DNA of 64,000 nucleotides from IMG/VR virus record IMGVR_UViG_3300045141_000130, positions 1 to 64,000 of that record; one strand, given 5' to 3'. The DNA comes from a virus. Numbering within the stretch: the stretch's first letter is position 1; the number at the start of each line of letters is the position of its first letter. The notes under the pieces were generated by a model that saw only the letters and a list, made by a program, of their open reading frames with translations, was not told the origin of the DNA and ran no database searches. Position numbers and translations under genes: made by a program. Below, in pieces: positions 3,373 to 12,822 of this stretch.

Positions 3373-4374
3373 TCAGGAGACGACGCTGTTGTAGAAGATG
3401 CCGCAGTCCCGGCTGACCTGCTTCAAGGCGTATGCGGCCTCGCCCTCGATCCGGTCCGACTTGATCTTCGGGTCGTAGAAGTTGGACATCGAGAGCCCGG
3501 CGCCGTTGCCTGCGCCATATCCGCGCCAGTTGAACGTGTAGCCCGCGCTGGGTTCCAGCAGGGACGGACGGTCCGGCGCGTAGCCGATCAGCATCGACTT
3601 GCTGTTCAGGATGAAGCTGTAGGTCGCGGCGGCGTCCTGCGCCTTCGCGTCCGGGATCTTCGGCCCGGTGGCCTGGGATGAGTAGGCGATGTAGAGCTTC
3701 GGGATGCCCAGGAACTCCGCCACCAGGTCCTGCGTGACGACGCCCTTCTGGGTGTACTTGATCCTGTCCAGGATCGCCGGGTGGTTCTGTAGCGCCTTCC
3801 ACACATCGGTGCCGAGCACCCCGAAGGAGACGCCGCGGCCCACCGACAGGCGGAAGGCGATCAGCCACGCGGTGGAGTCCTTCAGCGGGTCCGAGGAGGC
3901 CTGGTCCCACTGGACGAACTGGCCTGCCGTGGGGGCTGTAGTTACACCCGTGTACTCCAGGCCCCACACCCCGGTCTTGAAGAAGGTGCTGGCCCACAGC
4001 TGGTCCTTCTGCCGCAGCAGATGCTGCGTGACCAGGCGGGAGGCGTCCGAGTCCAGGTTCCAGTTGCTGTCCGCATTGGCCCTGGTCTGCGCGTCGATGT
4101 CGACGTGCGCGGCGTAGACGTCGCAGTAGAAGTTGTCGGTCTGGTTGGACCAGCCGATCCCAGCCGACTCGGTGCCAGGGGCACGCTTCTCGGCGTCGCT
4201 GCGCCGCCAGTCGGACTTCGAGTACTTCCAGAACACGTCCGAGCGCTTGTCGACCGGCAGGGCCGGAAAGACCTTGTCGGCGATGAAGTCGTTCGTGTCC
4301 TGGAAATAGGCGACCGAGACACCGGTCAGCGCACCGTCGATGTGGAGGTCTGGCCCTCCGGGCGTCATAGGCAT
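3373..4374 (-). CDS. Major capsid protein
   Basis: A 333-residue protein starting MPMTPGGPDLHIDGALTGV behind a GAGAGGTA site. It lacks the long N-terminal scaffold seen in HK97 and instead follows a separate scaffold gene and a decoration gene. The segments FIADKVFPALPVDKRSDVF and FGVLGTDVWKALQNHPAI are characteristic of actinophage capsid proteins of the HK97 fold that carry a free-standing decoration protein. It should form the icosahedral shell. Confidence 0.85.
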   Translation of the reverse strand: MPMTPGGPDLHIDGALTGVSVAYFQDTNDFIADKVFPALPVDKRSDVFWKYSKSDWRRSDAEKRAPGTESAGIGWSNQTDNFYCDVYAAHVDIDAQTRANADSNWNLDSDASRLVTQHLLRQKDQLWASTFFKTGVWGLEYTGVTTAPTAGQFVQWDQASSDPLKDSTAWLIAFRLSVGRGVSFGVLGTDVWKALQNHPAILDRIKYTQKGVVTQDLVAEFLGIPKLYIAYSSQATGPKIPDAKAQDAAATYSFILNSKSMLIGYAPDRPSLLEPSAGYTFNWRGYGAGNGAGLSMSNFYDPKIKSDRIEGEAAYALKQVSRDCGIFYNSVVS

Positions 4375-4387
4375 GTCGGGCTACCTC

Positions 4388-4798
4388 TCAGATCCTGATC
4401 AGCACGGCGGCGAGGGCACCGGCGGCGCCCGCTTCGATGCAGGTCCCGAGGATCGTGTCGGTGCCCGGCGTCCCGACAATCCCGTTGCCGCTCGCGTCGG
4501 ACTTGACCGGGTTCCCAGCGACCAGACCGCCCGCCCCGGCCATCAACAGGGTGACCCCCGAAATGGCGATGCTGGATGCCTCGCCGACCTTCTGCGGCTT
4601 GTTCTGCAGTACCCCGATCGCGTCGCCACCGGCGGCGGAAACGGAGCCTGCGATGTGGCTGCCGGTCACCTTCACGAAGGTGAACTGCTTGCCGAAGTTC
4701 GGGTCGGTGGACCCGGCCATGCCGGGAACGCCGGTGCGAATGCCGATGGAGGCATCGGCATCCAGCGAGATCCGGCGCTGGGTTTCGTCGTAGGCCAT
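4388..4798 (-). CDS. Head decoration protein
   Basis: A 136-residue Gly/Ala-rich protein with the segments GDAIGVLQNKP and GNPVKSDASGNGIV, which resemble the small beta-barrel capsid decoration proteins (DUF2190-like) encoded just before a major capsid gene. These trimers cement the shell lattice. Good AGGAG site before the ATG. Position between scaffold and capsid supports the call. Confidence 0.72.
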   Translation of the reverse strand: MAYDETQRRISLDADASIGIRTGVPGMAGSTDPNFGKQFTFVKVTGSHIAGSVSAAGGDAIGVLQNKPQKVGEASSIAISGVTLLMAGAGGLVAGNPVKSDASGNGIVGTPGTDTILGTCIEAGAAGALAAVLIRI

Positions 4799-4809: not shown

Positions 4810-5637
4810 TCAGCGGTTTCGCTCTGACCGGTAGGCGTCGTACGCCTCCGGGTTGCTGTCGAAGAAGGCCGAGATGGCCCCGGCCTTGGAGAGCCCGCCG
4901 TCGGACTTGGAGACCTGCTCGTCCAGGAAGGCGTCGATCTGTGAGATCGGGTCGTCCGGGATGCCGGAGGAGTCGAAACCGGCCTCCATGTAAAGCATCT
5001 CGCCCGCGGCGGCCAGCGCCTTGTGGATGACGGCGCAGTCGTCGTAGGACATGACCTCGGCCATGCGCATGATGACGGGGCCGAGTTCCTCCGGGTCGAT
5101 CGGCACGTTGTACTCGGCCGCCTTGGAGATGTACTCCCGCTGGAGGCGGAGGTCCCGCTCGCTCTTGGCGATCTCGGTTGCGTGGTTCAGCTGCGCCTCG
5201 GCGTACTCGGCACGCTTGCTCAGCGTGCTGAACGCCTTGGACAGCACCGCATCCCGGTCGTCCTCGCTGACCGCCTTGGCGAGTTCGGAGCGGATCCCGG
5301 CGACTACCGGGTCGAAGCCGAATGCCGACTTGCCGACCGCCACCAGTTCCCCGTCCTCGTCTTCGACGAGGTACTCGTCCTCGTCCCCGTCACCGTCGTC
5401 GTCTTCCTCGAAGACGATCTGGTACTGGTTGCCGTCCTCGTCCTCGATGACGTCACCCTCATCGAAATCGCTCAGGTCGACGGGGTTTCCGTACTCGTCG
5501 TAGAACTCCTCGTCCATCCCTACCTCCGAGTCGGCGCGCTTGGCGATCACGATCGCTGCCGGTGGGCAGGCTGCCCGATCGACGAGAGAGATCTCGTCAA
5601 TCTCCATGTCCTTGACTATCTGGACTGGCCGCGGCAT
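4810..5637 (-). CDS. Scaffolding protein
   Basis: A 275-residue acidic protein; I take the ATG at 5637, seven nt behind AAGGAGG, rather than an upstream start. The N-terminus (DEISLVDRAACPPAAIVIAK) resembles the edge of actinophage capsid-maturation proteins. Residues about 40-105 are extremely rich in Asp/Glu, and the rest is helical (about 115-260). It carries a KSAFGF motif related to KSAFGVED in the two proteins encoded just upstream. As a scaffold it would template capsid assembly and then leave, possibly after proteolysis. Confidence 0.6.
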   Translation of the reverse strand: MPRPVQIVKDMEIDEISLVDRAACPPAAIVIAKRADSEVGMDEEFYDEYGNPVDLSDFDEGDVIEDEDGNQYQIVFEEDDDGDGDEDEYLVEDEDGELVAVGKSAFGFDPVVAGIRSELAKAVSEDDRDAVLSKAFSTLSKRAEYAEAQLNHATEIAKSERDLRLQREYISKAAEYNVPIDPEELGPVIMRMAEVMSYDDCAVIHKALAAAGEMLYMEAGFDSSGIPDDPISQIDAFLDEQVSKSDGGLSKAGAISAFFDSNPEAYDAYRSERNR

Positions 5638-5693
5638 CTGTTCGCCTCCTTGGTTCAAGTCTCAGAGGCTTCGCAACACGCAGGGAAACGACT

Positions 5694-6818
5694 TCAGTTG
5701 TTGCGACGGCTCGCGCCGTACGCGGCACCACCACCGGCCAGACCGGCGCCACCGGCGCCGTACAGGACCGGCTTCACGCCGGGCACATGCGTGTACTGGC
5801 GGGCCAGTCCGCCCATGGCGCGCACGCTGTCGCCAGCGGTGTTCAACTGCCCGGCAGCCTTCGCACCACCGACGTAGGCGTTGGTGGTGGCACCCAGACG
5901 GCCCGGCATCTGCTTCAGGGTGGGCACGATCGCCTTCGCCCTGGCCTTCAACGGGCCTCCCACGTCGCCCGCGACCTTCTTACCGGCGCCGACCAGCGGC
6001 TTGAGCAGGTCGCCACCCACGCCCTTCTTGACCTGGCGGTTGTGGTAGGCGGCGTAGCCACCTGCGCCACCGGCCGCCGCGGCTGCGCCACCGGCGGTGT
6101 ACAGGGCGGGCTTCACGCCGGGGACCTGCAGGGCCTGACGTCCGGCGTAACCGGCGGTCCGGACAGCGGCGCCCGGGGTTTCCATCCGTCCGGCCTTCTC
6201 CTCCCCGCGCACCGCGGCGTTGACCGTCCTGCCGACACGTCCCGGCATGGCGCGAACATCCCTGACCGCGCCACGGAGGGCATTCGGCACCTGCCGGTGC
6301 TTCCCGCCGCCCCGGAGTTCTGCAGCGGCGCTCCGGCCGACCACGCGGGCCTTCCTGGCCGCGACACGGGCGGGACGGGTGAGCGGCCGAACCAGATCGC
6401 CCGCCGCCGACTTGAAGATCCGGTCGTCTTCGACGCCGAACGCGCTCTTTGCCATGCCGTTTGCCTCTCCGCTCGGGTGTGACTTGTGCCAAGCCGTGAT
6501 GGCGCCCGCTGCGCCCCCGGCGACGCCGATGGTTCCTGCTGCAACGGCGCCCAACTTGCCGTGGATGCGAGCACCTTCGTGACGCGAGATGTCCTTGATC
6601 GCCTGCCGTGAGGCAGCCAGGTTCTTGGGCTGCTGCCACACCTTCCAGGTGCGCTTCGGCTGGGGCATCGAAGACCGGATTTTCTGCGCCGCCTGGCCGT
6701 GATGCCGGGCGTACAGCGCCGCACCGGTCGCGCCTGCCGCACCTGCCGCGCCTGCACCGGCGCCGCCGTACTCGATGTCCTGGTCGGTGATGGCCTTGTA
6801 GACCTGGTAGACAGCCAT
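5694..6818 (-). CDS. Gly/Ala-rich repetitive head-region protein with glycine-zipper segments
   Basis: A 374-residue basic protein not recognised as any family. It has at least three Gly/Ala-rich hydrophobic stretches (about 18-38, 88-110, 260-280 and again at the end) and the motif KSAFGVED near residue 125. The C-terminal two thirds contain a tandem duplication of about 105 residues: each copy has GDL(V/L)(R/K)PL, then MPGR(V/L)G, then VPGVKP(A/V)LY and a final Gly/Ala segment. Encoded between the protease/scaffold genes. Could be an internal head protein that enters the host membrane during DNA ejection; this is inference. Confidence 0.6.
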   Translation of the reverse strand: MAVYQVYKAITDQDIEYGGAGAGAAGAAGATGAALYARHHGQAAQKIRSSMPQPKRTWKVWQQPKNLAASRQAIKDISRHEGARIHGKLGAVAAGTIGVAGGAAGAITAWHKSHPSGEANGMAKSAFGVEDDRIFKSAAGDLVRPLTRPARVAARKARVVGRSAAAELRGGGKHRQVPNALRGAVRDVRAMPGRVGRTVNAAVRGEEKAGRMETPGAAVRTAGYAGRQALQVPGVKPALYTAGGAAAAAGGAGGYAAYHNRQVKKGVGGDLLKPLVGAGKKVAGDVGGPLKARAKAIVPTLKQMPGRLGATTNAYVGGAKAAGQLNTAGDSVRAMGGLARQYTHVPGVKPVLYGAGGAGLAGGGAAYGASRRNN

Positions 6819-6829
6819 GGCGACTCCTC

Positions 6830-8845
6830 TCAGTAGACGTAGCTGGCGCCGCTGGTGCGGTCGCGTTCGTGGAGCCCGTAGGCGGTGGCCCCCAGGGCGG
6901 CAGCAGCGGCTCCGGCCCCCAGGGCACCGCCGCGCAGCTTGCGGGCGGCGGTGAGCGACCTGCGGGATGCGTTTCCGGCCCTGACGGCGGCTTCGTGTGC
7001 GGTGATGTTGCCTTTGAGGTGGCCCTGGCCGGGGAGCTTGCCCGCGGGCACAGGTGGCGTCTTCTGCTTGAAGGTCGCCATCTGCCGTCCCTGACGGCGT
7101 GTCAGTACGGCGTTTTCGTGCCTTTCGACCTTCGCCTGGCCGGTGCCCAGGATGTGCTTCGACCTGCTGGCCGCACCCAGGCCGATCCCGGCGGACCCGG
7201 CCACCGCCGCACCGCCCGCAGCCGCACCCGAGTACAGGTTCTGGCGGCGGTGCCGCTGCGTCTCCGGGTCGTAGGCCTTCTGCACCCCCTGGGGTGACCT
7301 TCTGTTCTCCCAGGAGATCTGATTGCGCCGGACCCTCGTCGCAATCCGCGTCAGCTTGCCAGGGTCGGGCTTCAGGTGACCTTGCTTCACGTTGTGCTGC
7401 AGCCCCATCAGCGCACCGAAGGTTCCACCACCGGCGCCCAGGGCGGCGGCCGACGGTGCGAACCTGCCCCTACTCAAGGCCATCCCGGCCGCAGTACCGG
7501 CGAGGCCACCCAGCGCCGCCCCGCCGCCCTCGTTGGCAGCGGCCCGGAGCTTGTGTCCCGGCTTTCCAGCGACGGCGCCATGGATTGCGGGGAAGCTGGC
7601 CGCCGTGTAGATCCGTCCCGGGCTCGCCTCGCCCCGTGAGGGGATCGGCTTGCGCTCCTCGTCGGTGACCGGACCCGACGCCTTGCCAACTACCTTCCTG
7701 TCCTGCGCCTCCCCTGCTCGCCGCAGGTGCCTGCGCTGCACGGCGGCACCGCCCCGGCGGGCGCCTGCGTAGGTGGCACCCGTCAGGGCCGCACCGGCGA
7801 GACCGGCACCGATCGCCGCCTGGCGCTTCGTGGGCACCAAGGCGTTGATCTTGCCGGTCGTCTCGGAGAGGTTCCTGGCGCTGTCCTCGGCGTGCTGTCC
7901 GGCCGCCTCGGCGTGCTGTGCGGCCGACGCCGAGGCCCTCTCCGCATGGGCGGTGACCTGGCGGACGTTGCCGTAGATGCCTTTGCCCGGGAACTTCCAG
8001 GCCTTGGCGAGCCGGATGTCTTCGACGCCGAACGCAGACTTGACCATCGGGATGTTGCTCCCCTGTAGCTGGTTGCGGATGTGCTTCTGGGCGCGGGGGA
8101 TCACACCTCTGGCATGCCAGTCCTGGGCGAGTCCGGCACCGGCGGCAAGCAGGCCGCCCGCGGCGAGCACGGCACCGGCCTTCCCTGCGGTGTGCTCGAA
8201 CCTCTCCGCCCGGCGGGTCACCTTGGCCGCATGCTCCGCCTCGGTGAGCTTTCCGCTCTTGGGGGTGACCAGGCCGACCGTGCCGGGGGCCATCTCCTTC
8301 CCGCGGGTGGCGATCAGGGCGCCGACACCGGCGGTGGCCAGTCCGGCCTTCTCGCGGTTGCGCCCCCTACGGGCCGCACGGTTGTCGCCGGGGTAGTCGT
8401 AGTCGGCCGGGCGGAGGGAAGGGATCTCATCGCCCTTGCTGACGGCCTTGGGGGCGTTTCCGGCGGCCAGGCCTTCCACGTACTGACGGTGCTGCTTGAC
8501 GTCGAACAGGACCCCCTCGTTGTGGGCCGCCGTCTGGGCTCTGCCGACATGGTGCGCCATGTGCACCAGACCACCCGCGGCGAGCGCCCCGCCGCCCATC
8601 ACGCCCGCCATACCGGCGCGGGGGAGGTGGTACAGCGTCAGGCCGCTGCCACCGGCGATCAGACCACCGGCAACAACCGCGGCGCGACCCTGCTTCGCCT
8701 TCTTCGTGTGGTACTGGCGCGACACGTCGGCCGTCTTGATGGCGCGGTTCAGGCCTGCCGAGGTGTTCAGGGTGTTGATGTCGATGTCGCTGTTCGGAGC
8801 CTTCTTGGAGAGGTCGTTGCGTTCCACGCCGAAAGCGTCACGCAT
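6830..8845 (-). CDS. Large Gly/Ala-rich head-region protein with KSAFGVED motifs
   Basis: A 671-residue protein with ATG at 8845 behind AAGGA. It starts MRDAFGVERNDLSKK and repeats the related motif KSAFGVED near residue 270, which is shared, even at the DNA level, with the neighbouring 374-residue protein. It has several predicted hydrophobic Gly/Ala segments separated by basic, charged regions, and a KAYDPE motif near residue 520 like the KAYDPQ of the minor head protein. No enzymatic motif seen. Possibly an internal virion or ejection protein matured by the adjacent protease. Confidence 0.6.
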   Translation of the reverse strand: MRDAFGVERNDLSKKAPNSDIDINTLNTSAGLNRAIKTADVSRQYHTKKAKQGRAAVVAGGLIAGGSGLTLYHLPRAGMAGVMGGGALAAGGLVHMAHHVGRAQTAAHNEGVLFDVKQHRQYVEGLAAGNAPKAVSKGDEIPSLRPADYDYPGDNRAARRGRNREKAGLATAGVGALIATRGKEMAPGTVGLVTPKSGKLTEAEHAAKVTRRAERFEHTAGKAGAVLAAGGLLAAGAGLAQDWHARGVIPRAQKHIRNQLQGSNIPMVKSAFGVEDIRLAKAWKFPGKGIYGNVRQVTAHAERASASAAQHAEAAGQHAEDSARNLSETTGKINALVPTKRQAAIGAGLAGAALTGATYAGARRGGAAVQRRHLRRAGEAQDRKVVGKASGPVTDEERKPIPSRGEASPGRIYTAASFPAIHGAVAGKPGHKLRAAANEGGGAALGGLAGTAAGMALSRGRFAPSAAALGAGGGTFGALMGLQHNVKQGHLKPDPGKLTRIATRVRRNQISWENRRSPQGVQKAYDPETQRHRRQNLYSGAAAGGAAVAGSAGIGLGAASRSKHILGTGQAKVERHENAVLTRRQGRQMATFKQKTPPVPAGKLPGQGHLKGNITAHEAAVRAGNASRRSLTAARKLRGGALGAGAAAAALGATAYGLHERDRTSGASYVY

Positions 8846-11015
8846 GGCGCACCGTCCTTGTAGCAACGAGGCGGACCGCTGACTTCTCGACGGGGTCCGC
8901 GAGCAGCCGGGCGCGGCCTATCGGGCCCACACCGGTGGACCGCTTCGCCTGATTCTTGACGTGCTCGTTGTAGAAGCTGCCGGGACTGTCGGCCTCCACC
9001 GCGGCCTGGCCCATCGACGGCTTGGCCTTGTAGGTGTACTCGCTGCCGTTGCGCATCCGGTAGACGAGCCGCCGGGTCTGCTTCTGATAGCCGACCTTCG
9101 ACGCCATCGACGAGGCAACCCGGTGCAGCTTCACCGCGGGCGGGTGCACGGCCTGGCCGACGCGCTCCCCCAGGCCCCGCGCACTACGCCGCGCCTCGTC
9201 CTTGACCCTGTCAACCGACGTGTCGTCACGCTTTTCGATCGCCCATCGCAGGACCTTGCCGGGCAGCGGGTACTTGTCCTCCAACATCTGTCCCGAGATG
9301 CCGACCCGCTGGATGGTCCGCTTCACCGGGTTCATCGCGTTGGTGATCTTCGACGAGGAATGCTTCGGAGTGGTCAGGCTCCACGGGGTCTTACGAGACT
9401 CGGCGACCCGGTGCCTCCCACCGCCGTAGACGGTCCTCTCGGCCGTACTGCGGGGGGTGCGGTGCCGACCGATGTAGGTGTCGTCGGCCTTGGCGAGGTG
9501 CTTCGGCCCGACCGGTCCCCACGAATGTTCCGACTTCCGCTCGATCTGACGCCACTTGTTGGTCTCAGTGGAGGCCTGATGCCTTGCACCGCCAGGGTTG
9601 ACCGCCATCAGGCGATGCCTTCCAGGCGGCTTCGGCAGGGCCCTCGGACCGGCAGTGGGGATGGGCCCCTTACCCAGGAACCGGAGCACCGGCATGTCGG
9701 CCTTGGTGAGCAGCATCGCAGGTATGCCGTGCAGCCCGGGTGGCATGCCCGCGTCCATGCTGCCGAGGTAGTCGTTGACGCCAGCGATCTTGTCGGCGTG
9801 CAGGTGCAGCAGGCCGCGCACCTTGTTGGCCCGCCTCACGCCGGGGTCGGAGGAATGCCTCGGACCGTAGGCGATCCGGTGCAGGATCGGCTTGGCAGCC
9901 GCCTCGCCCGGCGCACTGTGCGCGCCCTTGGCGACGCTGTTGGCGATGCGGGCCGCGGAGCCTTTGCTGTGGCCCTTGCGCCGCAGCGCGTGGTAGGTGT
10001 CCCAGTCCTTGACCTCCGGCCCCATCTTGGCGACCGTGGTGCGCGTACCGGTGCCGTGAATGGAGAAGCCGGTGCGTTCGCCGGACTTCACCATCGCCCA
10101 CTGCGCGTCGTCGTTGACGTGGAAGCCCACCCACCAGCCGATCGGCAGGGCGTCGGGCGGCAGGCCCATCTTGGACAGCTTCTCCGGGGTGACGACGAAG
10201 GACTCGATCAGGTCGGAGGTGTGCTTCGGGGAGTCGTAGGCCTTCGCTACCCGGGCGTGCATGTCGCCGCCCTTGCGGGACTCCAGCACATAGCGGTAGG
10301 CGGCCTTCTCCGTCTCCTCGATGGGGACGATGTCGCCCTGCAGGTCCAGCACCGGCCTGCCGCCCATCGAGGACACCGACGCCCAACCGAACACCTGACG
10401 CTTGTCGGCGTCGACCTTGGAGATGGTGCCGGTCCAGGTGACCGACTTGCCGAACAGGCGGCCCGGTGCGGTGGGGGTGATGCTCGGCCTGCGCGCCCGC
10501 AGGCTCGGCACCCGCGCACCCATCGGGTTGAGCGGCCGCAGCCGGAATGCCTTCGCAACGCCCGCGGGCTGCACGCCCGGCTTCGGCTGCTTGTTCAACG
10601 CCTGGATCTGGGCCCGGGCACCCAAGGTGTCGCCCAGCAACTCCACGCCGTGTAGGGCCAGGGCCCCACCGCCCACCACCGCGGCGGCCTTTGCCGGGTT
10701 GAGACGAGTCACCCTAGCCACGGCCCGGGTGACCCGCCCCGTCTTACCGGCCACGGCTTCGCCAGAACGGACCTTGTTCTCTACCGTGGTGGCCTTGATG
10801 GCGTGCAACCCGGCCACACCGGCCAGGCCGGTGGACGCCAGGCCCACACCGGCCAGGACCTTCTCGCGTCGGGCCTTCTTGGCGTTGACGTCCCCGTCGA
10901 TGTGCACATCGGGGCTGTCCGACATGAACTTGGCGAGTTCACGCGGGTCGACACCATCTCCGTAGATCGCCTTGGCGATCTCGGCGAACACCGGCGACAC
11001 CGGCATGCGTGGCAT
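8838..11015 (-). CDS. XkdF-type phage protease with KTSC-like C-terminal domain
   Basis: A 725-residue multidomain protein. Residues about 190-330 match the XkdF phage serine-protease family: VFGWASVSSMGG, LQGDIVPIEETEKAAYRYV, ESFVVTPEK and GWWVGFHVNDD. The C-terminus (about 650-700; VYRMRNGSEYTY and SFYNEHVKN) resembles a KTSC-type domain. Two hydrophobic segments lie at about 50-130 and the middle is basic and low-complexity. XkdF proteins are thought to act in capsid maturation. The start could be either of two close ATGs (11015 or 11006). Confidence 0.72.
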   Translation of the reverse strand: MPRMPVSPVFAEIAKAIYGDGVDPRELAKFMSDSPDVHIDGDVNAKKARREKVLAGVGLASTGLAGVAGLHAIKATTVENKVRSGEAVAGKTGRVTRAVARVTRLNPAKAAAVVGGGALALHGVELLGDTLGARAQIQALNKQPKPGVQPAGVAKAFRLRPLNPMGARVPSLRARRPSITPTAPGRLFGKSVTWTGTISKVDADKRQVFGWASVSSMGGRPVLDLQGDIVPIEETEKAAYRYVLESRKGGDMHARVAKAYDSPKHTSDLIESFVVTPEKLSKMGLPPDALPIGWWVGFHVNDDAQWAMVKSGERTGFSIHGTGTRTTVAKMGPEVKDWDTYHALRRKGHSKGSAARIANSVAKGAHSAPGEAAAKPILHRIAYGPRHSSDPGVRRANKVRGLLHLHADKIAGVNDYLGSMDAGMPPGLHGIPAMLLTKADMPVLRFLGKGPIPTAGPRALPKPPGRHRLMAVNPGGARHQASTETNKWRQIERKSEHSWGPVGPKHLAKADDTYIGRHRTPRSTAERTVYGGGRHRVAESRKTPWSLTTPKHSSSKITNAMNPVKRTIQRVGISGQMLEDKYPLPGKVLRWAIEKRDDTSVDRVKDEARRSARGLGERVGQAVHPPAVKLHRVASSMASKVGYQKQTRRLVYRMRNGSEYTYKAKPSMGQAAVEADSPGSFYNEHVKNQAKRSTGVGPIGRARLLADPVEKSAVRLVATRTVRHA

Positions 11016-11037: not shown

Positions 11038-12822
11038 CTAGACGCGGGGGTCGGGTCGCACCTTGACCTCACGGAGCCCGATGATCCCCGGAGGGGCCTG
11101 CGAACCGAGTTCGCCCAGCGCCGATCGGTAGCGCACCCAAGCGGTCTGGTACCTGCCGGTGAGGTCGTGCTTGCGGTTGACGTCGCGGGGGGTGAAACCG
11201 CCTGCGAAGCTGATGAAGCTGGGTATCTGGGCGTCGAGCAGCGCCTTGTAGCCGGGCCGCATGTCCCGCCACTCCCGCACGTTGTCGATGATGTCCCCGG
11301 CCTGTGCGACCACCTGCTGACGCTTCCCCTCCTGCGACATGGGCAGGTCGTCGACGTCTCTCATCATCTGGCGACCGAGTTCGACAAACACCTGCGGCTT
11401 GTGCCAGACCGCGTAGTCGCACATGGCCTCGATCGCGCTGCCGTCGTACTTCTCCGGGTGGTGCTCATAGTTGGCGGTGTTCTCGGTGATCTCTTTCTTG
11501 ATCGTGTCGAGGGACGCCTTGTCGGAGAATCCGGCCCACTCCCCGAAGGTGTGGATCTCGGCGGGCGTCATCTGCTGCAGCACCTGTGCGGTATGCGCCA
11601 ACGCGGTCGACCACAGCGAATGCATGACGTCGGAGATGTCCTCCCAGCCCTTCGGGTCGACGTAGGGCCGCGACTCCACGTCCACCCCCCACGGGTCGGG
11701 CGCCCGATGCGTGCCGATCTGCGCACCCTGGGCGTTGCGACCTTGGGCCAGGTGCAGGCCGATCTCACTGAAGTCGATGGGCTCCCCGTAGGCGTCCCCG
11801 GCGTTGGCGAACTCGCCACCCTTTCCGGTGAAGTAGCCCCCCAGGCTGGCCACCGGGACGTAGTGCTTGTCCAGGTGCCGTTCCCTCGGGTCCTCCTTCA
11901 GGTCCTCCGGCTCCACATCGCCGGGCTGCTTGCGCATGAAGTAGACGTAGTTCTGCTGCTTCGGCTTGGCCTCGGCGAACAGGTCCTCCCCGGCAGCAGA
12001 GAAGTCGGCCTGCTTCTGCGACGGCCCGGCAGCGGCGAACGGGTCGGTCTTGGTCCTGGCCGCGGCGAACGGATCACCCCTGGCGGCAGCGAACGAGTCC
12101 CTCCGGGCGGCGGCGGCGAACGGGCCCGCGCCTGCGGCGGCGAACGGGTTGGCCCTGGCCGCGGTGAACGGATCGACCTGCGGCCTCTCCTCGGCGATCT
12201 GGATCCCGGCCAGCGGATCCTTCTCCTTCACCCTCTCCTTCACCGGCTTCCCGACCGGACCGCGGGTCCACTTGCCATCACTGTCGCGGCGCTCCTGTGG
12301 GTCATAGGCCTTGGCGACGGCATCTCGGGCGCCGTCCCAGGCCTTGATCTCGGTGCGCGCCAACGTTTCTGCGTACGCGAGTGTGGTACGCACAGCGGTG
12401 CGGGCGAGGGAGTCGGGAGCCGCGCCCGCACCACTGGCGTTCGGGGTCGGCATGGCCCCGCCTAACAGGCCGCGCAGCCTGCGGGCGTCCAGGCCGTACC
12501 CGGCCAGGACCCGCTGCCATGCAACCTCGGGATTCCAGCCACGATCGAGGAGGACGTCCATGCCGACGGCCAGACCTTTCGCCGCTGAGTCGGACAGCAG
12601 GTTGGCCAGCTGGTCGGCGTACTCCTCGGCTGCGAATCCGGCCAGATGTGCCGATGCACCTTCGACCAGCTTCAGCCAGTGGGGCAGACACCGGTTGAAC
12701 GTCGTCTTGGCCTGCGCCTCGATGCGACCCACCTCGGGCCGCTGCTCCTGCAGGTGCTGACGCACGACCTGCCACATCGCCAGGATCGACGCGGCCAGGT
12801 CGTCGTCAACGGCGGTCGTCAC
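11038..12822 (-). CDS. Minor head protein (MuF-like position) with DPFAAA repeats
   Basis: A 594-residue protein. Its helical N-terminal part (about 1-190) ends with KAYDPQERRDSDGKW, a signature found in many actinophage minor head proteins next to the portal. Residues about 215-275 hold six or so copies of a (D/N)PFAAA-like unit, at about 7-13-residue spacing. The C-terminal half is well folded in appearance but not recognised. It probably sits at the portal or inside the head. Overlaps the gene before it in an ATGA junction. Confidence 0.6.
   Translation of the reverse strand: MTTAVDDDLAASILAMWQVVRQHLQEQRPEVGRIEAQAKTTFNRCLPHWLKLVEGASAHLAGFAAEEYADQLANLLSDSAAKGLAVGMDVLLDRGWNPEVAWQRVLAGYGLDARRLRGLLGGAMPTPNASGAGAAPDSLARTAVRTTLAYAETLARTEIKAWDGARDAVAKAYDPQERRDSDGKWTRGPVGKPVKERVKEKDPLAGIQIAEERPQVDPFTAARANPFAAAGAGPFAAAARRDSFAAARGDPFAAARTKTDPFAAAGPSQKQADFSAAGEDLFAEAKPKQQNYVYFMRKQPGDVEPEDLKEDPRERHLDKHYVPVASLGGYFTGKGGEFANAGDAYGEPIDFSEIGLHLAQGRNAQGAQIGTHRAPDPWGVDVESRPYVDPKGWEDISDVMHSLWSTALAHTAQVLQQMTPAEIHTFGEWAGFSDKASLDTIKKEITENTANYEHHPEKYDGSAIEAMCDYAVWHKPQVFVELGRQMMRDVDDLPMSQEGKRQQVVAQAGDIIDNVREWRDMRPGYKALLDAQIPSFISFAGGFTPRDVNRKHDLTGRYQTAWVRYRSALGELGSQAPPGIIGLREVKVRPDPRV

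Follow-up and report, generated by a model that had tools for sequence, protein, structure and literature searches.

In bacteriophage T4, otherwise diverse internal proteins carry a conserved capsid-targeting signal, the CTS (PMC3012670), which is removed by the prohead protease (PMC7411985). In phage P1, the N-terminal ~30 residues of DarB suffice for entry into the capsid (PMC9024508). The protease and ejection proteins of SPN3US bear C- and N-terminal propeptides, 64 to about 130 residues long, which are cut by the phage's own protease at an AXE motif; for the C-terminal propeptide of the protease itself, a role in directing the enzyme into the prohead has been proposed (PMC7411985). Outside T4-like, T7-like and P22-like phages, the loading of internal or ejection proteins into siphophage heads is poorly known. 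Here, we describe a peptide of seven residues, with the overall form S-A-F-G-V-D/E-H/D, that recurs in uncultured soil-type phages. It is probably a portable, position-independent prohead-targeting tag that would be cut off by the maturation protease at an adjacent hydrophobic-x-Lys site, referred to below as the lysine site.

Tag and lysine-site pieces in a head-gene module

The stretch of DNA analyzed (the window) comprises 64 kb out of a 73,357-bp IMG/VR record. Its head genes, and all window features given below, lie on the minus strand in the order portal, 1184-aa protein, MuF-like 594-aa protein, XkdF-type protease, 671-aa protein, 374-aa protein, acidic scaffold-like protein, cement and major capsid protein (MCP). 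The portal belongs to phrog_113 (Portal_Mu). The MCP (3373..4374) is of the gpE type, with a full-length match to the phrog_1005 profile (residues 4-332, E 3.3e-69), and the cement or decoration protein (4388..4798) matches PF09956; both are without a tag. PHROGs labels the protein at 4388-4798 'head scaffolding' (phrog_673), while Pfam calls it cement. The preceding 275-aa gene product (4810..5637) is termed scaffold-like from its position directly upstream of cement and MCP, its acidity (pI ~4; median 4.1 in five near-complete genomes) and its predicted helices, the AlphaFold model of this protein being poor (pLDDT 53). The maturation protease (8838..11015) contains a Peptidase_S78_2 domain (PF14550; 51.0 bits against a curated cut-off of 24) and a C-terminal KTSC domain (PF13619). 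At 725 aa it has an unusually long extension, with a DUF7218 match past the protease domain and KTSC near the C terminus. A search by sequence found no solved structures for it.

Between the protease and the scaffold lie two basic, Gly/Ala-rich proteins without a Pfam or PHROG family, one of 671 aa (6830..8845; pI 11.1) with hydrophobic, TM-like segments, and one of 374 aa (5694..6818; pI 11.0). In the latter, residues 133-252 and 262-365 form a tandem duplication that has diverged to 39% identity and ends in hydrophobic VPGVKP-LY-AGGA segments. A sequence-only reading of the window had pointed to an octapeptide common to the two proteins. KSAFGVED is indeed present in both, its K codon starting at 6449 in the 374-aa and at 8041 in the 671-aa protein, with the identical 18-nt core GCGTTCGGCGTCGAAGAC; one such shared 8-mer among six head proteins compares with 0.003 in within-protein residue shuffles. 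DAFGVERND, likewise reported near the start of the 671-aa protein, occupies residues 3-11 (8839). It forms part of an N-terminal tag, MRDAFGVERNDLSK (8804..8845), with core DAFGVER and lysine site LSK, and the same M-x-DAFGVxR form is found in relatives L017, L022, L100 and L107. The second, internal tag of the 671-aa protein, MVKSAFGVEDIRLAK (8003..8047), has core SAFGVED and lysine site LAK/A (the slash marks the putative cut), and the tag of the 374-aa protein, MAKSAFGVEDDRIFK (6411..6455), combines the core SAFGVED with IFK/S. An ATG opens each of these last two tags (8047 and 6455), with the Shine-Dalgarno-like stretches AGGGGAG and GGAGAGG, respectively, upstream. Thus, both positions may serve as internal starts yielding shorter N-tagged forms.

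Other pieces noted in the same reading belong to the lysine site rather than to the tag. KSAFGF does occur in the scaffold (5331), as VGK/SAFGF (5314..5337) in a linker predicted to be disordered, and is kept in most relatives as VGK-SAF[GF], a lysine site that resembles the tag only partly. KAYDPE in the 671-aa protein (7279), KAYDPQ in the MuF-like protein (12312) and KAYDSP in the protease (10244) were also located as described, and their proposed kinship with the tag did not hold. They have only hydrophobic-x-Lys followed by Ala or Ser in common with it, and were rejected as variants of SAFGV in favor of further lysine sites: VQK/AYDPE (VQK/AYDP at 7265..7285), VAK/AYDPQ (VAK/AYDP at 12298..12318) and VAK/AYDSP. 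The first of these heads a segment conserved in relatives, KA[YF]D[PS]E.xRHxRQ..Y.GA. In MuF-like proteins, KAYDPQ is followed by a second, widespread motif, QPRDxxGRW (L007, for example, has VSKAYDPQENRDETGRW). The same motif is joined to a tag in a neck-region protein of L168 (10123-10821; MLSAFGVDHGEVYKGYQDQPRDDRGRW).

Recurrence and dialects of the tag

Loci of the same lineage were collected from IMG/VR through a portal search and a scaffold-alignment search, and more were added by tag pattern. Of the 80 viral loci for which homology of the scaffold was the sole criterion, a search made without use of the tag, 64 have the core [SDNT]AFG[VI] in forward-strand open reading frames. Across all fetched loci, those found by tag pattern included, there are 243 dereplicated occurrences spread over 78 loci, compared with 1, 3, 5, 6, 7 and 21 for six letter-permuted control motifs in the same loci. 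The core is written in 171 distinct 15-nt encodings, which shows that selection acts on the peptide. This codon diversity rules out a DNA-level element, and the residue shuffles and permuted motifs do the same for chance similarity.

When the 243 occurrences were reclassified by Met, 167 were found directly after this residue near the N terminus. Another 45 are C-terminal, no more than 25 residues from the stop codon, and in many of these the protein ends exactly in SAFGIEH or SAFGVDHE; the other 31 are internal. N-terminal tags of the larger clade follow the consensus M-x-S-A-F-G-[VI]-[DE]-H-G-x(0-3)-[IV]-[SE]-K-[AG], and those of the window's clade follow SAFGVEDxR[IL]xK; one form of the peptide reads SAFGVDHGEISK. 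A 705-residue open frame in L082 (4455-4520) differs from these single terminal tags by its clustered NAFGIKQSAF and KSAFGVPKKSAF pieces in a variable stretch.

Tags of one genome are more similar to each other than to those of other genomes, with a likeness of 0.657 against a null of 0.519 (shuffle maximum 0.567). In L088, SAFGV tags are absent and three SVWGVDH tags (7551, 8070 and 12325) are present; the form in L110 is SPWGVDH. SVWGVDH in L088 is another dialect of the same tag. Such a dialect, together with the likeness within genomes, is what would be expected if the tag co-evolves with a receptor.

Searching with the N-terminal DNA pattern mostly retrieved fragments with recognizable MCP, scaffold, protease or portal homologues. 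Among bacteria and archaea (84,980 genomes), the same pattern matched only four times, each match a single copy in its fetched locus, and the three with a full core lack hydrophobic-x-Lys after it at the usual distance. These matches look like chance, and a general prokaryotic motif was rejected. By MCP or portal, the nearest cultured relatives are Arthrobacter Laroye, Ottawa and Kovu, Microbacterium ValentiniPuff, Rhizobium RHph_Y60 and Pseudomonas KPP23. No tags were found in those scanned for them (L031-L036); the RHph_Y60 and KPP23 head regions were scanned for lysine sites only. The scaffold and the tagged proteins tried had no match among the cultured phages in the collection, and the genome contigs searched yielded no prophages with the same scaffold. 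SAFGVDH, SAFGVEH, SAFGVED, SAFGIDH and words starting with SAFGV were absent from the full-text literature searched.

Tagged proteins and the adjacent lysine site

With the tag masked, the bodies of the tagged proteins fall into 113 BLAST clusters at E 1e-4, and one of these (65 members) is probably held together by Gly/Ala-rich sequence. No known Pfam or PHROG family was found among 30 representatives. Their composition is shared: of the N-tagged proteins, the 163 that exceed 60 aa all have a pI above 9.5, versus 18% of untagged proteins, with Gly and Ala together accounting for about 31-33% of residues. A hydrophobic Gly/Ala segment often lies near a basic end of tagged proteins. A raw six-frame scan of five near-complete genomes matched the tag 28 times, always in a phage coding frame; 24 of the matches are in or adjoin the head module and four are beside tail-fibre genes. 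A few tagged proteins, encoded next to tail-fibre genes, are separated from the head genes by 15-20 kb, which counts against a role in head loading. Three near-complete genomes have one or two distant tagged basic proteins each (L171 4199-5259, L172 10236-10541 and L176 3539-3814), whose genes have as neighbors one for a collagen-like fibre and a small conserved one (PGVYKYDLFVTVNDG).

Between tag and body, in both orientations, lies a further element of the form hydrophobic-x-Lys, which in most cases reads ISK or VSK. In 166 of the 167 N-tags, I, V, L or F stands two residues before the first Lys past the core; counted on the body-facing side, 162 of 166 N-tags have the element. In 43 of 45 C-tags, a Lys precedes the core, and the residue two positions ahead of this Lys is hydrophobic or aromatic. 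Of the internal tags, 16 out of 31 are flanked by the element at both ends. The background rate of hydrophobic-x before Lys is 14-15%. Tag and lysine element swap places between N- and C-tags, so the latter element marks the junction of tag and body and does not belong to a single motif as a constant part.

The same site abounds in the scaffold and the protease. Counting hydrophobic-x-Lys with Ala or Ser next in the five near-complete genomes gave 35 sites in scaffolds (1.3 expected), 27 in proteases (4.6 expected), 19 in tagged proteins (9.2 expected) and 87 in the other 511 proteins (69 expected); the enrichment within tagged bodies, the tag itself aside, is weak. In the window, the scaffold has seven sites versus 0.25 expected, the protease seven versus 1.0, including VAK/AYDS at 10250-10230, and the MCP one versus 0.4. 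The conserved scaffold unit consists of VGK-SAF[GF] followed by ELSKAF. We infer that hydrophobic-x-Lys followed by Ala, Ser or Gly is the putative cleavage site of the maturation protease. The tag-free scaffolds of cultured relatives also score high, with 3-10 lysine sites versus 0.6-1.0 expected, so the Lys-Ala sites of scaffolds could partly be an effect of helical or coiled-coil composition. Several of the lysine sites in the window scaffold sit in helices predicted by the low-confidence model.

Possible roles of the tag and comparison with known systems

In the mechanism that we propose, basic Gly/Ala-rich proteins with a tag at the N terminus, the C terminus or a fusion joint would bind to some part of the head under assembly, the receptor presumably being one of the head proteins, and would be enclosed. 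The XkdF-type protease would cut the adjacent hydrophobic-x-Lys site, before Ala, Ser or Gly, between tag and body. The mature, tag-free proteins would stay in the head with the DNA and possibly be ejected later, and the same protease site would allow the scaffold and the protease to be chopped. The initial suggestion was that short tags next to an XkdF-type protease may be cleavage or targeting signals that load internal proteins into the prohead. Its targeting half finds good indirect support in conserved N- or C-terminal tags on many unrelated basic proteins, mainly of the head module, in which a lysine site faces the body; its cleavage half needs revision, as the cut would not fall in the tag but likely beside it, at hydrophobic-x-Lys. 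More tentatively, and with the odds somewhat against so general a scheme, the pair could amount to a seven-residue loading code and a hydrophobic-x-Lys release site serving an open-ended set of basic cargo, with tag and receptor co-evolving (SAFGVDH, SAFGVEDxR, SVWGVDH).

Could the tag do no more than dock the maturation protease and signal cleavage, positioning the enzyme at the neighboring lysine, while the proteins reach the head through charge or other contacts? A lysine site almost always lies beside the tag, K-S-A-F is common to the tags and the scaffold VGK-SAF[GF], and the protease itself is rich in lysine sites. However, most lysine sites of the scaffold and the protease have no SAFGV nearby, which suggests that the enzyme does not need it, and removing a terminal tag would be purposeless unless the tag had an earlier role. 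We consider this explanation unlikely. Rather more improbable is a binding peptide for assembly at the portal or neck vertex, for instance of a stack of ejection proteins, that is not removed and of which the lysine forms part. Many tagged genes are among the neck genes after the MCP, and Gly/Ala-rich hydrophobic segments would suit ejection proteins that form a membrane channel, but C-tags reverse the order of the elements and the lysine is not fixed in one linear motif.

We give little credence to a function outside the virion, such as host-protein binding, membrane insertion or control of degradation. Some tagged genes are away from the head genes and the bodies contain TM-like segments, yet tagged genes are concentrated around scaffold and MCP, the tag is free to be N- or C-terminal, the proteins are strongly basic, and cellular genomes have no tag beyond chance. 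As for chance or a recent DNA duplication confined to the window, which the 18 identical bases of its two copies might suggest, the recurrence of the tag (243 occurrences, 171 encodings, 78 loci, 113 clusters) refutes it and leaves it a negligible probability.

If the more general loading code is real, any protein tagged at its N or C terminus could be loaded and then released tag-free. The tag rule predicts two to eight candidate internal proteins per genome, along with their processing sites, in a large group of uncultured phages. These proteins and sites, and with them the contents of the heads and the route of loading, become directly testable by co-expression. If the targeting reading is right, the tag would also be a compact handle for putting chosen proteins into phage heads, and its dialects a natural experiment in tag-receptor specificity.

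Encapsulin cargo-loading peptides are short and terminal and load unrelated proteins into an HK97-fold shell, with no proteolytic removal. They are not known to be related in sequence to the SAFGV tag, and the likeness is one of principle only. The P1 DarB signal is likewise N-terminal, but it belongs to one large protein and not to a family of repeated tags. SPN3US propeptides occur at N and C termini as here, and are long with an AXE motif where the present tag has seven residues and a Lys site. The T4 CTS of IPI-III and Alt is also a short conserved terminal peptide on diverse small head-internal proteins, and the point where it joins the body holds a putative protease site. As in T4, the peptide is found N-terminally on unrelated head-module proteins (167 N-tags, 113 tag-masked clusters). 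In contrast to T4, the junction residue is a Lys after hydrophobic-x in place of a Glu-ended cleavage motif, tags are not restricted to the N terminus (45 C-terminal, 31 internal), the sequence differs, and the protease is of the XkdF/Peptidase_S78_2 family, accompanied by a gpE-type MCP. In view of its sequence, junction residue, protease family and freedom of terminus, the SAFGV tag was not filed as a T4 CTS. On the best reading of this comparison, it would work like the T4 CTS without sharing its sequence or its cleavage motif.
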